Assembly: GCF_023022985.1 (NCBI RefSeq) | Contig: NZ_CP095461.1 | Coordinates: 1,054,001-1,118,000 of the forward strand | Source: Arthrobacter gengyunqii | GTDB lineage: Bacteria > Actinomycetota > Actinomycetes > Actinomycetales > Micrococcaceae | Direction of reading: 5' to 3' | DNA length: 64,000 nucleotides | Shown here: in pieces, positions 55,619-60,621 of the stretch | How the letters are laid out: each line of letters begins with the position of its first letter | Position numbering within the stretch: position 1 is the stretch's first letter | Made by a program: the position numbers and the translations under genes | The notes under the pieces: model-generated | The model's database searches: none | The model's input: the letters and a program-made list of their open reading frames with translations, nothing else | Told to the model about the DNA's origin: nothing

Positions 55619-55762
55619 TCAGACCGGCTGGGTAAGCGCCACAATGAAGACGGCCACGCACATCAAGGCAGTGGCAATAACAATCCCGTAGCCGATGCGC
55701 GTGATGCGCTGCTGACGGGCTCGGTCCTGGCGCCATTCCCGGCGCGTCATGGTGGTGCTCAT
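55619..55762 (-). CDS. Small single-pass membrane protein (47 aa)
   Basis: The minus strand encodes a 47-aa protein with a basic N terminus (MTRREWRQDRARQQRITRIG) and one membrane helix (IVIATALMCVAVFIVALT) ending Gln-Pro-Val-stop. The positive-inside charge pattern supports a real membrane protein. No ideal ribosome-binding site is visible before ATG 55762, and ATG four codons later is an alternative start. Function is unknown. Confidence 0.55.
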   Translation of the reverse strand: MSTTMTRREWRQDRARQQRITRIGYGIVIATALMCVAVFIVALTQPV

Positions 55763-55947: not shown

Positions 55948-56199
55948 TTACAGGCCTGCGGCGCGGCCCTCGGCCAGTTCCTTCGCCGTGTCGGAACGGC
56001 CCATCATGAACGGGACGAAGTACGCCAGCGTACCCAGACCCAGGCAGATGGCCATCGGCCAAACGTTGTCCAGGGTCAGCCAGGTCAGCGAGTAAAGCCC
56101 GACCACGAAGATGGCCAGGTAGATGACAAAAGTGATGAGGTTGCTGACAAGGTGCCCTTCACCCGAGTGCGTGGGCTGCTTGGACCGTGTTCCTGCCAT
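55948..56199 (-). CDS. Small two-helix membrane protein
   Basis: An 82-aa (plus stop) protein starting at ATG 56199 (MAGTRSKQPTHSGEGHLVSN). It has two membrane helices (LITFVIYLAIFVVGLYSLTWL and PMAICLGLGTLAYFVPFMMG) and a short polar C terminus. A longer in-frame reading to 56274 is rejected because it adds a poor leader inside the gap after deoC. I recognise no named family; small two-helix proteins of this sort are common in actinobacteria. Confidence 0.7.
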   Translation of the reverse strand: MAGTRSKQPTHSGEGHLVSNLITFVIYLAIFVVGLYSLTWLTLDNVWPMAICLGLGTLAYFVPFMMGRSDTAKELAEGRAAGL

Positions 56200-56239
56200 G
56201 GTGATTCTCCGTTTCAAAAAGATTTCAGTAGCCGGCGGA

Positions 56240-56914
56240 TTAGTAGTCCGACGCGGCGTTCCCACCCTTAACAATAGCGATACCGGAGCTTGCTCCGATA
56301 CGCGTGGCTCCGGCGTCGATCATTGCCTGCGCATCTTCGCGCGAGCGGACGCCTCCGGAGGCCTTCACGCCGAGGTCCGGTCCGACGGTGCGGCGCATCA
56401 GGGCAATGTCCTCAACGGTGGCTCCGCCGCCGTTGAAACCGGTGGAGGTTTTTACGAAATCCGCGCCGGCTTCGACTGCAGCCTCGCAGGCAAGGACCTT
56501 CTGCTCATCGGTGAGCTTGGAGGTTTCGATGATGACTTTCAGGATGCCGTTGCCGCTGTGGACCTCATCGGCCACGGCAGCGATGTCCCGGACGAGCGCG
56601 TCCCGGTCGCCGCGGCGGGCGGCGGCAATGTCGATCACCATGTCGATCTCGTCGGCACCGTCCTGCAGTGCACCCCTGGCTTCGAACACCTTAACCTCTG
56701 TGGTGGTGGCTCCCAGCGGGAAGCCGATCACCGAGCAGGTCAGCACGCCGCTGCCTTTGAGCGCGTTGCGCACGGTGCCAACCCACAGCGGGTTGACGCA
56801 AACGGACTTGAAGCCGTACTCGGCTGCTTCGGTGCAGACTTTCAGGATGTCCTCGCGGCTGGCCTCGGGCTTAAGGAGCGTGTGGTCAATGTAGGACGCA
56901 ATGGGTGTAGACAT
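56240..56914 (-). CDS. deoC: Deoxyribose-phosphate aldolase
   Basis: DeoC converts 2-deoxyribose-5-phosphate to glyceraldehyde-3-phosphate and acetaldehyde in nucleoside salvage. The 224-aa protein is a TIM barrel with [24 protein letters not shown] and the Schiff-base Lys in FVKTSTGF, then [11 protein letters not shown] 56914 is chosen; ATG 56923 would add three residues and neither has a strong ribosome-binding site. Its role agrees with purine nucleoside phosphorylase and the phospho-sugar mutase encoded 4-6 kb to the right. Confidence 0.95.
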
Positions 56915-56965
56915 GCCCACCATCTTGCCACAGGCGGGGGTGCTGTTTGGGCTTTAAAGGACTGT

Positions 56966-56999
56966 GGCCGGGTAAGCGTCTTTCGACGCCGACCCGGCC
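56966..56999 (-). terminator. Hairpin terminator downstream of the peptide gene
   Basis: GGCCGGGT (56966-56973) pairs with ACCCGGCC (56992-56999), and GCGTC/GACGC extends the stem inside. It lies 26 bases past the stop of the leftward peptide gene and before deoC, so the peptide gene is a separate unit. Confidence 0.6.
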
Positions 57000-57025
57000 A
57001 GCCACAAGCGAATGATCGCTAGGTA

Positions 57026-57166
57026 TTAGAAAATAATGGGAAACAACGTGGTAGCCGGCTTCACAATGGAAGGGGCAGCGCTGGGAGCGTCGGCTGAAGC
57101 CGGTCCCGCCACGCCCACAACTGTGATGGCTGCTGCAAGCAGAAGGGCTGATCCGAGCTTTTTCAT
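57026..57166 (-). CDS. Short secreted peptide precursor (46 aa), candidate signalling peptide
   Basis: A 46-aa protein with a textbook Sec signal: MKKLGSALLLAAAITVVGVA, then GPASA as cleavage site. The remaining 21 residues, DAPSAAPSIVKPATTLFPII plus a final Phe, end in the hydrophobic pentapeptide FPIIF-like tail. GGAGGAA lies 6 bases before ATG 57166, so translation is well supported. It is divergent from a TPR protein gene starting at 57398 and followed by its own hairpin. Size and layout resemble Phr/CCF-type peptide precursors. A simple small cell-wall peptide is the alternative. Confidence 0.75.
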   Translation of the reverse strand: MKKLGSALLLAAAITVVGVAGPASADAPSAAPSIVKPATTLFPIIF

Positions 57167-57397
57167 ATGGTTCCTCCAAGTGGCGAATGGCAACATAGTA
57201 ATCATGGCGGAAAGTTGGGTTAAATACGAGGCTTTTGGCGGTGCAATCACAAATTCTTGATGACTTAATGCTGAAAACGGGTGTCTTCGTGACAGGTAAC
57301 GTCCCGCGTGCCTAGTGAAGCGATGATGGTTGCGGAACTTCTGGAGTAGGGTGATCCTCGACACGTTAGTTTTTGAGTGCACAGTTAGGCAGCTGCA

Positions 57398-58429
57398 GTG
57401 GACGATTCCGTCGATCAAATTCTGAGCGAATACAAAGCTCTTCAGCACTGGGAGCGCAGGGAATACAAGGCTGCCTTGGAGCATGCAGCGGCCGCTGCCG
57501 AGAAAGCTCTCACCAAGGCCGACACCATCGGTTATTTGCGAATGGCCCTACTTCTAGCCGAATGCCAACTGGAACTTGGTCAAATGCAGGAATTCGCTGC
57601 CAGTGCCAAGGAACTCTCCGAGCATCCTGCGCTGCAGGATGACGCAAGAATTCTGGTGAGAGCAAAGGTGCTTTATTCGCGGGCTTTGGAAGCCTTGGGC
57701 CATATAAGCGAAGCCTTGGCACTTGCCGAAGAGGCTGCCGCTATGAATGTGGCTCCTACCCTGGATCCTGTGGCCAAATTGGGAATGCTCCATGGTCTCG
57801 TGGCAGCACTTACTGAAAGCAGCAGGGAAGTCGAGGCCTGGAAGTACGCGAAAGAGATGGCTCTGCTCGCTGCGGAACAGGACGATCAAGAGGTGGCAGG
57901 CAAAGCATATTGGGCCGTTGGCATTGTGGCCTTCTTATTGAACGATGCCGAAAACGGCATCTATTATCATCGGCTTGCGGCTGATAATCTTGCGCCCGGA
58001 AACGATGTTAATACGTGGGCAATGTTCAATAAGAGCTCTGCTTTAGCTCGCCTGTCTGCAGGAATAGTGGAACCTGAAACGCTTGCATGCATTGAGAGGG
58101 CAGAACTCGCGATGTCGGTAACCGGTGTCAGCCCCCTTCAGGAGTTGGAGATCTCTATCGCGCGGGCTCACTGGTTACTCCTTGCTGGAGGAGCGGACGA
58201 GTCGGTTGCAAGGCTTCAACGGATCCTCGAACAGCGCGAACTCTTGCCGGAACATACCCTTGCGGAAGTGGAATACGTTGCCGCCCTTGCTTTGCATGAG
58301 CTGGGGCGGAATGATGAAGCACTGGTTGCCGCGGTGCACTCTGAAAAAGTTTTCATCGGACACGGTTCGCGGCGGAGGGCGCTGGAGGCCCGCAGCGTCA
58401 TAGACAGCATTGCTCGCAGCGGCCAGTGA
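57398..58429 (+). CDS. TPR-repeat protein, candidate peptide receptor
   Basis: A 343-aa all-helical protein built of about seven to eight tetratricopeptide-like helix pairs (for example LALAEEAAAMNVA, GKAYWAVGIVAFLL, AALALHELGRNDEALVAA). There is no helix-turn-helix, catalytic motif or membrane segment, and an in-frame TAG upstream excludes a longer N terminus. The base composition is visibly less GC-rich than its neighbours, hinting at separate origin. Rap-type proteins of the RRNPP group have similar length and are paired with short secreted peptides, as here. Function is not established; a structural scaffold is also possible. Confidence 0.75.
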   Translation: MDDSVDQILSEYKALQHWERREYKAALEHAAAAAEKALTKADTIGYLRMALLLAECQLELGQMQEFAASAKELSEHPALQDDARILVRAKVLYSRALEALGHISEALALAEEAAAMNVAPTLDPVAKLGMLHGLVAALTESSREVEAWKYAKEMALLAAEQDDQEVAGKAYWAVGIVAFLLNDAENGIYYHRLAADNLAPGNDVNTWAMFNKSSALARLSAGIVEPETLACIERAELAMSVTGVSPLQELEISIARAHWLLLAGGADESVARLQRILEQRELLPEHTLAEVEYVAALALHELGRNDEALVAAVHSEKVFIGHGSRRRALEARSVIDSIARSGQ

Positions 58430-58535
58430 ACGTGTTGAGGCATCCGGGGACTAAGAAGCATCAATTTCGGGCGTAAGTGCGGAACGAAGTACTGCGGCAG
58501 CGCGCAGCGTCTTCGTGACGCTTCTGGGGGGAAGC

Positions 58536-59009
58536 ATGGCACAGCAGGGATCGACTGAAACAGTAGTGCGCAATGACTGCTCGGGCGAGCGTTCTTCGGT
58601 CACGGAAGTGGGGGCCAACGTGCCCGGCCGGCTGACGTCGTCGGACAGAACACCGCAGGTGGACGTCTCCCTGGCGCCCGAAGGACACATGCTGCTGGTG
58701 TTGCCGCCGGGGGAAGTGGTCACCGGAACCATGGCGGCAACCGCAGCAGCAGAAGTGGACCGGCTGGCAGGCACGAGGAAGATGCCGATGCTGCTGGTGC
58801 TGACCGGGGTTGAAGCCCTCACCCGTGGAGCCCGCACCGTGTTCGGCAACGCTGAGTCGCTGGCTGCTGTTGCCGTGCTCGGCGTCTCACCCGTGGACCG
58901 CGTCATCGCCAACTTCCTGTTGGGTGGTGCCTCCCAACCCTGCCCCACCCGCTACTTTTCATCTGAACAGGAAGCACTGGCATGGCTCAGAAGGAAGAAC
59001 ATTGACTGA
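58536..59009 (+). CDS. STAS/SpoIIAA-like protein
   Basis: A 157-aa protein. The N-terminal 45 residues are polar and variable, and the C-terminal part (about 50-150) has the alternating strand-helix pattern of the STAS/SpoIIAA-like fold: VDVSLAPEGHMLLVLPPGEV, MPMLLVLTGVEALTRGARTVF, AVAVLGVSPVDRVIANFLLG. It is probably a small regulatory protein. The ATG at 58536 follows a G-rich ribosome-binding site. It overlaps the GGDEF-EAL gene by 8 bases, so the two are translationally coupled. Confidence 0.7.
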   Translation: MAQQGSTETVVRNDCSGERSSVTEVGANVPGRLTSSDRTPQVDVSLAPEGHMLLVLPPGEVVTGTMAATAAAEVDRLAGTRKMPMLLVLTGVEALTRGARTVFGNAESLAAVAVLGVSPVDRVIANFLLGGASQPCPTRYFSSEQEALAWLRRKNID

Positions 59010-60621
59010 TGCTCTGCCCGCTCCACAGACCTCACAGCCTTCCGGAGCGCAACAGCCTGAAAACGATGACCGTTTAAGCCAGGTTGTCGAAGGCATCATT
59101 CGCATTGCCGCCGGAAATCTTGATACCCACATCCCCGTGTCCAAAGCCCGGGACCAGGTGGATGCGGTCATCACGGGCATCAACCTGCTGGCCGGTGAGT
59201 TGAACGAGGTCTACGCTGACTTCGAAGAGCGGGTGGAGCGCCGAACCCGGGAGCTGCGCGAAGCGCACCTGACCATGCAGAAAATGGCGATGACCGATCC
59301 GCTCACCGGGGTAGGCAATCGCTCGTCCCTCCACGAGGCGCTAGACGTTGCCATCAGTGCCCGTATTCCCGGCGAGCCGGGGCCGGCAGTGCTGATGATT
59401 GATCTGGATGGCTTCAAAGACATCAATGACAGCTTCGGCCACCATGCCGGTGACCTGGTGCTGATTGAGATTGCCGCGCGGCTGGTGGCGGCAGCAGGCT
59501 CCGAAAGCGTCGTCGCACGCCTGGGCGGGGACGAATTTGCGGTGCTGCTGCAGGTCTCCACTTCTCAGCAGTCCCGCGGTGCAGCCCTCAGAATCATGGA
59601 TGCCCTTAAGCGCCGCATTCCGATGGAGGACATGGATGTTTGGCCGCGGGCGAGCATCGGCATTCACCTGGCAAACGCGCATGAATCCGCAAGCGACATC
59701 CTGCTGCGCGCGGACACCGCCATGTACGCAGCCAAGGAAGACGTCCATCGGCGGATCAAGGTCTTCGAACCGGTGATGCTGTACAGCAGGCAGCTGCGCC
59801 GGGAAACGGCACGGGAGCTTCGCCGGGCGGTTCCGGACGAGGAACTGTTCCTGGAATACCAGCCGGTGGTCGACTTGGAGAGCGGCCGTCTGCAGGGCGT
59901 CGAGGCGCTGGTTCGGTGGAACCATCCCCGCCGCGGTGTGGTGATGCCTGATGATTTTATTCCGCTGGCGGAAGAGACCGGGCTGATCGTCGGGATTGGC
60001 CGCTGGGTGATGTGCGCTGCGTTGGAACAGCTGGAACGCTGGCGGCCGCTGCTCGTTTCCGAAGAGAACTTCCTGCTCCGGGTCAACCTTGCGGCGTTGG
60101 AGCTGCAAAGCCTGGATCTGGTGGACTTTGTCCGCGACTCCCTGCGCGCAACCCGAACAAAGCCCGGCGAACTGGTCCTGGAAATCACCGAAAGCGCTCT
60201 GCTTTCGGGCGGCGACGTGGAAACCTACTCGCTGCGATCCCTTCAGGCGCTGGGCGTCGGCCTGGAAATTGACGACTTCGGCACCGGATATTCCTCCATC
60301 AGCTACCTGCGTCGGCTCCCGGTGGACACCGTCAAGGTGGACCGGTCACTGATTGCTGACATTGCGGGCGACGACGGCCAGCTGCGGTTTGTTGATGCTG
60401 TCCACAACCTGATCCGCGCCGCCGGCTTGGAAGCGGTCTTTGAAGGTATTGAAACCGCCGAACAAGCCGAGCAGCTGCGGAAAATGGGGTGCTGCAGCGG
60501 ACAGGGCTACTATTTCAGCCGGCCGATTCCTGCAGGCCAGATCACCGTTCTGCTGCAGGAAGGACGGACGCTTCCGGAAGCACCGGTGGTACTTCCGGAA
60601 GCCGCCGTCGTCCTGCGTTGA
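59002..60621 (+). CDS. Cyclic-di-GMP synthase/phosphodiesterase (GGDEF-EAL)
   Basis: A 539-aa soluble dual-domain protein. A HAMP-like or helical segment lies at residues 26-95. The GGDEF domain has an intact GGDEF at 175-179 and the family start TDPLTGVGNRSSL. The EAL domain has EAL at 301-303 (GVEALVRWNHP), LVLEITES, IDDFGTGYSS and VKVDRSLI, so both synthesis and hydrolysis of cyclic-di-GMP are possible. No membrane segment is seen. A TTG start at 59002 is chosen because AAGGAAG lies upstream and it overlaps the STAS-like stop. Confidence 0.93.
   Translation: MTDALPAPQTSQPSGAQQPENDDRLSQVVEGIIRIAAGNLDTHIPVSKARDQVDAVITGINLLAGELNEVYADFEERVERRTRELREAHLTMQKMAMTDPLTGVGNRSSLHEALDVAISARIPGEPGPAVLMIDLDGFKDINDSFGHHAGDLVLIEIAARLVAAAGSESVVARLGGDEFAVLLQVSTSQQSRGAALRIMDALKRRIPMEDMDVWPRASIGIHLANAHESASDILLRADTAMYAAKEDVHRRIKVFEPVMLYSRQLRRETARELRRAVPDEELFLEYQPVVDLESGRLQGVEALVRWNHPRRGVVMPDDFIPLAEETGLIVGIGRWVMCAALEQLERWRPLLVSEENFLLRVNLAALELQSLDLVDFVRDSLRATRTKPGELVLEITESALLSGGDVETYSLRSLQALGVGLEIDDFGTGYSSISYLRRLPVDTVKVDRSLIADIAGDDGQLRFVDAVHNLIRAAGLEAVFEGIETAEQAEQLRKMGCCSGQGYYFSRPIPAGQITVLLQEGRTLPEAPVVLPEAAVVLR

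Follow-up and report, generated by a model that had tools for sequence, protein, structure and literature searches.

In a 64,000-nucleotide window of the Arthrobacter gengyunqii genome (contig NZ_CP095461.1, positions 1,054,001 to 1,118,000), a short gene for a predicted exported peptide precursor is found divergent from a gene encoding a 343-residue tetratricopeptide repeat (TPR) protein, and two more genes follow the TPR gene on its strand (Table 1). A first-pass annotation had described the divergent genes as arranged like a quorum-sensing pair. The precursor it described, of 46 aa with a ribosome-binding site, a Sec signal, and a 21-residue remainder, is confirmed: the gene runs from an ATG at 57166 to a stop ending at 57026 and is preceded by GGAGG, and an AxA-type cleavage site appears to follow residue 25, leaving 21 residues that end in LFPIIF. 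We infer the ends of the mature peptide from the sequence. Pooled over the peptide genes, the ratio of nonsynonymous to synonymous differences per site (pN/pS) is 0.25 for 27 pairs from the genus and its sister genus, which overlap and in which synonymous sites are near saturation. This value supports a real coding gene. By part, the ratio is 0.11 in the signal (residues 2-26), 0.45 in the linker, and 0.36 in the last eight residues, and the precursor consists of a conserved signal, a loose linker, and a constrained [WF]P core.

Table 1. Features of the peptide-TPR locus, in window coordinates
Feature	Position	Strand	Basis
Peptide precursor gene, 46 aa, stop included	57026..57166	-	Kept divergent from TPR gene in 29/29 genus genomes
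LFPIIF, C-terminal core (residues 41-46), putative mature signal or its core	57029..57046	-	Alignment with WP cores of relatives
Predicted Sec-type signal, precursor residues 1-25, AxA ahead of putative cut	57092..57166	-	Read from sequence
Intergenic region between the divergent genes, 231 bp	57167..57397	.	Between precursor and TPR gene
Ribosome-binding site GGAGG of precursor gene	57173..57177	-	Read from sequence
TPR-only receptor candidate, 343 aa, GTG start, stop included	57398..58429	+	AlphaFold2 pLDDT 91.3; in 29/29 genus genomes
DUF7793 / SpoIIAA-like protein, candidate partner; ATG start picked by ribosome-binding site	58536..59009	+	PF25056 E 3.4e-13 on 58515-59006
GGDEF-EAL c-di-GMP protein, HAMP-like N-terminus, candidate output	59002..60621	+	PF00990 E 1.5e-36, PF00563 E 2.7e-68

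The TPR gene exists in all 29 genomes of the genus examined, and at each of these loci a divergent open reading frame (ORF) of 43-53 aa is found 156-243 bp upstream. These ORFs encode a conserved MKK-type signal, a variable linker, and a C-terminal core (e.g., LIGNWPY, LINWWPN, VFGMWPK, SGKWPVI, and TTLFPII), which contains WP in 26 and FP in three, including that of the window. An automated pairing test requires a divergent ORF within 450 bp that has a ribosome-binding site, a signal-like start, and [WF]P past residue 20. It is passed by 29/29 genus loci, while none of 20 loci of an orphan paralogue with a helix-turn-helix (HTH) domain passes it. As controls, 0 of 1160 dinucleotide shuffles and 0 of 29 loci on the opposite strand pass; 7 of the 1160 shuffles do so when the [WF]P motif is dropped. 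While related species of a genus are non-independent trials, their receptors are as low as 33% identical to that of the window. The pairing of the two genes is beyond chance. The co-occurrence proposed in the first pass also extends to 20 further TPR-only loci read later (i.e., loci whose receptor has no HTH): the peptide is found in 19, and the twentieth is cut by a contig end.

In the 343-aa protein, Pfam detects TPR matches only below threshold (TPR_14, E 0.11) and no HTH. AlphaFold2 models the protein as an all-helical solenoid of TPR type with a mean predicted local distance difference test score (pLDDT) of 91.3 and a predicted template modelling score (pTM) of 0.84, based on an alignment of 29 proteins. 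Both receptor-family models checked (pLDDT 91.3 and 89.1) are predicted TPR solenoids. They match the structures of Rap, NprR, and AimR, but also those of unrelated TPR proteins, which score equally high or higher; the fold is therefore no proof of receptor function. The description of a divergent TPR protein without an HTH stands. The reading frame is open for just three codons upstream of the GTG at 57398, and tblastn of two HTH domains against window positions 56901-57600 finds no remnant, so that an HTH overlooked because of a wrong start can be rejected. Among the 29 aligned receptors, Asn176 is present in 27; the exceptions, that of the window (Ile) and one other (Thr), both have FP-type peptides, and the receptor of the third FP-type peptide retains it. 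An association of altered Asn176 with FP-type peptides (2/3 FP rows vs 0/26 other rows) is suggestive only. As a separate observation, the TPR-only gene of genome G022 (C1:2990300-2991315) and the HTH-TPR paralogue of genome G006 (C6:312245-313212) are each split in two frames; they may be either pseudogenes or sequencing errors.

The TPR gene has a lower guanine-plus-cytosine (GC) content than the window (0.555 vs 0.659), as had been noted before. Since it is GC-poorer than its flanks at all 29 genus loci and occupies a single syntenic place in all 29 genomes, this is a stable property with no sign of recent transfer, and recent horizontal transfer is rejected as its cause. A phage or plasmid origin was also considered. 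The TPR protein of the window matches no record of the plasmid and phage collections by tblastn, nor does an Arthrobacter HTH-TPR protein match any plasmid. In the same check, two distant HTH-TPR proteins match Streptomyces, Streptosporangium, and Nonomuraea records, and the Streptomyces homologues are on plasmids.

Relatives of the TPR protein are common in Micrococcaceae, where a family-level search gives matches in 222/395 genomes. In Arthrobacter-type genera, the homologue is a protein with an XRE-type HTH and a TPR part. HTH_31 and HTH_3 are above the Pfam cut-off in four of five such relatives scanned. In the fifth, the orphan paralogue of the window genome, the HTH is invisible to Pfam and clear by alignment (40% identity to the HTH-TPR protein L107 over the whole length). 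At the first 25 HTH-TPR loci read (at 24 distinct places, since L069 and L106 coincide), a divergent precursor is evident in 24 and is found in the last by a relaxed look; cores are, for example, VGNWPDPM, IGNWPDPM, VGDWPH, VGEWPH, VGIWPNS, and TGNWPN. The named HTH-TPR loci, which are the 80 best of 292 and come from Arthrobacter, Pseudarthrobacter, and Paenarthrobacter, all have a precursor beside the HTH-TPR gene (65 by a strict rule, 15 by relaxed reading). Between one and four GNWPDPM-like units occur in each of these precursors, which is what a multi-copy pheromone would be expected to show. Searching proteins with one precursor gave 362 homologues. The 120 listed are those closest to a GNWPDPM query; among them, 365 of 367 units are GNWPDPM, while 151 different linkers are found among 247. 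Fixed cores with drifting linkers are expected if the core is the product. None of the 120 has a Pfam domain, and all are named hypothetical or uncharacterised protein except one "opacity protein-like surface antigen".

A promoter-like element, TTGACA-19-TAnAAT, is found upstream of the HTH-TPR gene in 80/80 named loci (L143-L222), directed toward the peptide gene. In 77 of the 80, CATTGTAAAATG lies across its -10 region. It is plausible that CATTGTAAAATG is a putative autoregulatory site of these loci. The same intergenic element (160 bp upstream of the HTH-TPR gene) has TTGACA on the other strand in 80/80.

In a midpoint-rooted tree of 81 receptors, the 42 TPR-only proteins included, which come from three genera, all form one clade (support 99/97). 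The HTH was therefore most likely lost once. The neighbour of this clade (96/84) is the orphan HTH-TPR paralogue of the window's genus, which in the window genome is at L002:1444-2706, about 65 kb from the pair and beside an RpfB-like gene. No peptide gene is found beside this paralogue in the window genome and 19 others looked at, and the paralogue might read the window's peptide. At seven TPR-only loci of a sister genus (L362, L365, L366, L367, L370, L371, and L376), precursors have two to four cores (e.g., KVGNWPD), indicating that multi-copy precursors also occur outside HTH-TPR systems. The GGDEF-EAL neighbour described next is missing at six of the seven.

Downstream of the TPR gene are the DUF7793 and GGDEF-EAL genes; the latter probably starts at a TTG that overlaps the DUF7793 stop. 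A GGDEF-EAL gene follows the TPR-only gene on the same strand at 29/29 loci of the genus, 8/10 of a second genus, and 5/5 of a third (42/44), and the surroundings of these linked loci differ among the three genera. DUF7793 is found in between at 29, 3, and 3 loci, respectively. In one of the two misses, a second tandem TPR gene comes first and is followed by GGDEF-EAL. At G124:C1:1947962-1950513 (L120, L139), two TPR-only genes exist in tandem ahead of a GGDEF-EAL gene. No GGDEF-EAL neighbour is found at the 80 named HTH-TPR loci or at 20 orphan paralogue loci. Elsewhere in the window, two more short ORFs with hydrophobic stretches (55619-55762 and 55948-56274, both on the minus strand) lie between an mfd-like gene and deoC and resemble genes for small membrane proteins.

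More distant relatives are found outside Micrococcaceae. An order-wide search with the TPR profile (E 1e-10) matches 26/396 genomes. Class-wide, 21 diverse TPR domains at 1e-12 match 25/394 genomes and 17 full-length receptors at 1e-30 match 102/394. Among 92 outside loci read, which are part of the match list, a script finds a divergent exported ORF with the W-P and/or CC signature at 45 (4 with W-P, 34 ending in CC, 7 with both features), spread over 10 of the 13 families read, and another divergent exported ORF at 11. The signature appears in 3/920 order-1 Markov controls; note that the CC rule was set post hoc, after the sequences had been seen. Examples are ...APDWPVMCC, ...EPNWPTMCC, and ...GGIWCC; one locus (L268) has two DIEWP units, and another (L244) has three DISWP units that the script missed. 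A peptide of this kind is also present in a named record of Nonomuraea gerenzanensis. Divergent exported peptides with CC ends, some having both W-P and CC, are seen at the distant HTH-TPR homologues L255-L257, L261, L262, L264, L265, L270-L272, L309, L310, L320-L322, L333-L335, and L337-L340. They may represent another type of signal within this class.

By analogy with the RRNPP systems of Bacillota, the two genes probably encode a peptide pheromone and the TPR protein that serves as its receptor inside the cell. The precursor would be exported via its Sec-type signal and trimmed; the resulting short peptide, approximately LFPIIF in this case, would re-enter through an oligopeptide permease and bind in the groove of the TPR protein. 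The genome has ten SBP_bac_5 genes, none of them tied to this peptide. While the HTH-TPR relatives would act on transcription, the receptor of the window has no HTH and therefore most likely acts through partner contact, for which the linked DUF7793 / GGDEF-EAL pair is the best candidate. Cyclic di-GMP (c-di-GMP) is likely to be the output for part of the TPR-only clade, that of the window included. That the DUF7793 / GGDEF-EAL pair couples population density to c-di-GMP is a tentative proposal, its chances a little short of balanced. The original reading of the locus as a quorum-sensing pair is supported; peptide binding and quorum sensing themselves are inferred.

Several observations weigh against this reading or parts of it. 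Two HTH-TPR loci of Micrococcaceae or the same order (L133 and L138) have no peptide. The remaining 36 of the 92 outside loci have no divergent exported ORF, and in the named-record set a matching peptide is missing at five Streptomyces plasmid homologues and one Streptosporangium locus. For the output step, only 10 loci of the later TPR-only set have GGDEF-EAL and only two have DUF7793. The idea that GGDEF-EAL always belongs to the system is therefore rejected, and the constant unit is the peptide plus receptor. Finally, the first pass had called for peptide and receptor to vary together. Differences in the peptide core do track those in the TPR protein (r 0.47, 20 species), also when the paralogue is taken into account (partial r 0.30, 9/5000 permutations), while the paralogue adds 0.02 given the TPR protein (1948/5000). 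The signal-peptide part, however, tracks the TPR protein more strongly (partial r 0.54, 0/2000). This indicates little more than that the genes travel together, and the covariation is rejected as proof of specific recognition.

Three other explanations compete with a pheromone and its receptor. The peptide may report the cell's own export or envelope state, being exported, then retaken or degraded, and read by the TPR protein or the GGDEF-EAL neighbour. The anatomy would be identical, and a GGDEF-EAL link suits a switch governed by internal state no less than one governed by population. While sequence cannot separate the two, tandem copies and the diversification of cores between species suit a diffusible lineage-specific signal better, and we consider a self-state reporter unlikely. 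Slightly less probable still is a secreted antimicrobial or toxin-like peptide for which the TPR protein provides regulation or immunity. A small exported peptide whose core varies, encoded beside a regulator, would look alike, and the CC ends of some distant relatives could form disulphides or be modified. However, the core spans only about 6-8 residues and recurs in near-identical copies in Arthrobacter-type precursors, its partner is a TPR or HTH-TPR protein of cytoplasmic type, and no dedicated exporter or modification gene was recognised at 10 loci with neighbours listed, part of which were run against Pfam. That the genes are unrelated neighbours, kept side by side through synteny or a common promoter region, is very improbable: deoC and DUF7793 do flank the pair at 29/29 genus loci, but the pair recurs with different flanking genes in other genera, in TPR-only and HTH-TPR versions and in distant families, and the paralogue locus has no peptide.

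With a pheromone and its receptor as the preferred explanation, a wider possibility can be put forward with reserve. Actinomycetota may have a large and old class of peptide pheromones parallel to RRNPP, with XRE-TPR receptors and divergent exported precursors that have W-P and/or CC cores, multi-copy in many Micrococcaceae. In one branch of Micrococcaceae, the receptor would have shed its DNA-binding domain and, across much of the branch, become tied to GGDEF-EAL as a peptide-gated c-di-GMP switch. A gene-encoded peptide signal in Arthrobacter and relatives, often present in multiple copies and read by a TPR receptor, would be an added communication channel in common soil bacteria. A receptor stripped of its DNA-binding domain beside GGDEF-EAL would link population sensing to c-di-GMP, and short, directly orderable peptides would be at hand for testing.

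The closest known parallel is Rap-Phr, an RRNPP system of Bacillus and thus of another phylum. The likeness to Rap drawn in the first pass is valid as an analogy only; no sequence search ties the protein to Rap (RapF reaches E 0.12 in PDB sequences). Homology of the TPR part to known RRNPP(A) members is undetected, with only generic TPR/HTH families in Pfam and no relevant NCBIfam match. Like Rap, the receptor of the window has no HTH, while other RRNPP(A) receptors have one at the N-terminus. Unlike Rap-Phr, the window pair has a divergent peptide gene, and the core is W-P or F-P. The N-terminal domain of Rap acts on partners of Spo0F or ComA type, whereas the linked candidate partner here is a GGDEF-EAL protein. 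We know of no c-di-GMP-type output for RRNPP receptors.

The Arthrobacter-type relatives, with an XRE-type HTH and a TPR part, resemble HTH-bearing receptors such as those of Rgg-SHP, PlcR-PapR, NprR-NprX, and ComR-ComS, from which the window's own receptor differs in having no HTH. Their HTH matches that of PlcR weakly (E 7e-5, residues 4-57), and the TPR parts are alike in fold only. The peptide gene is divergent in many Rgg-SHP pairs, as it is here. Unlike in the HTH-bearing systems, precursors here have a Sec signal, with one to four cores in Arthrobacter-type genera. Our literature searches found no such peptide-TPR system described in Actinomycetota, in line with the first-pass statement that no equivalent was known in Micrococcaceae. 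Several pheromone copies per precursor are a feature that Arthrobacter-type precursors appear to share with the tandemly duplicated propeptides of RRNPPA systems, from which extracellular proteases excise the copies; these systems are described for Bacillota, and the terms Actinobacteria and Actinomycetota do not come up in a term search of that source (PMC11343458). According to a large RRNPP survey, Actinomycetota typically signal by small molecules, and peptide signals are regarded there as belonging to Bacillota (PMC10075063). Gamma-butyrolactone signalling of Streptomyces belongs to the same phylum as the window pair, and its signals are small molecules made by enzymes, while those proposed here are gene-encoded peptides (PMC13220807).
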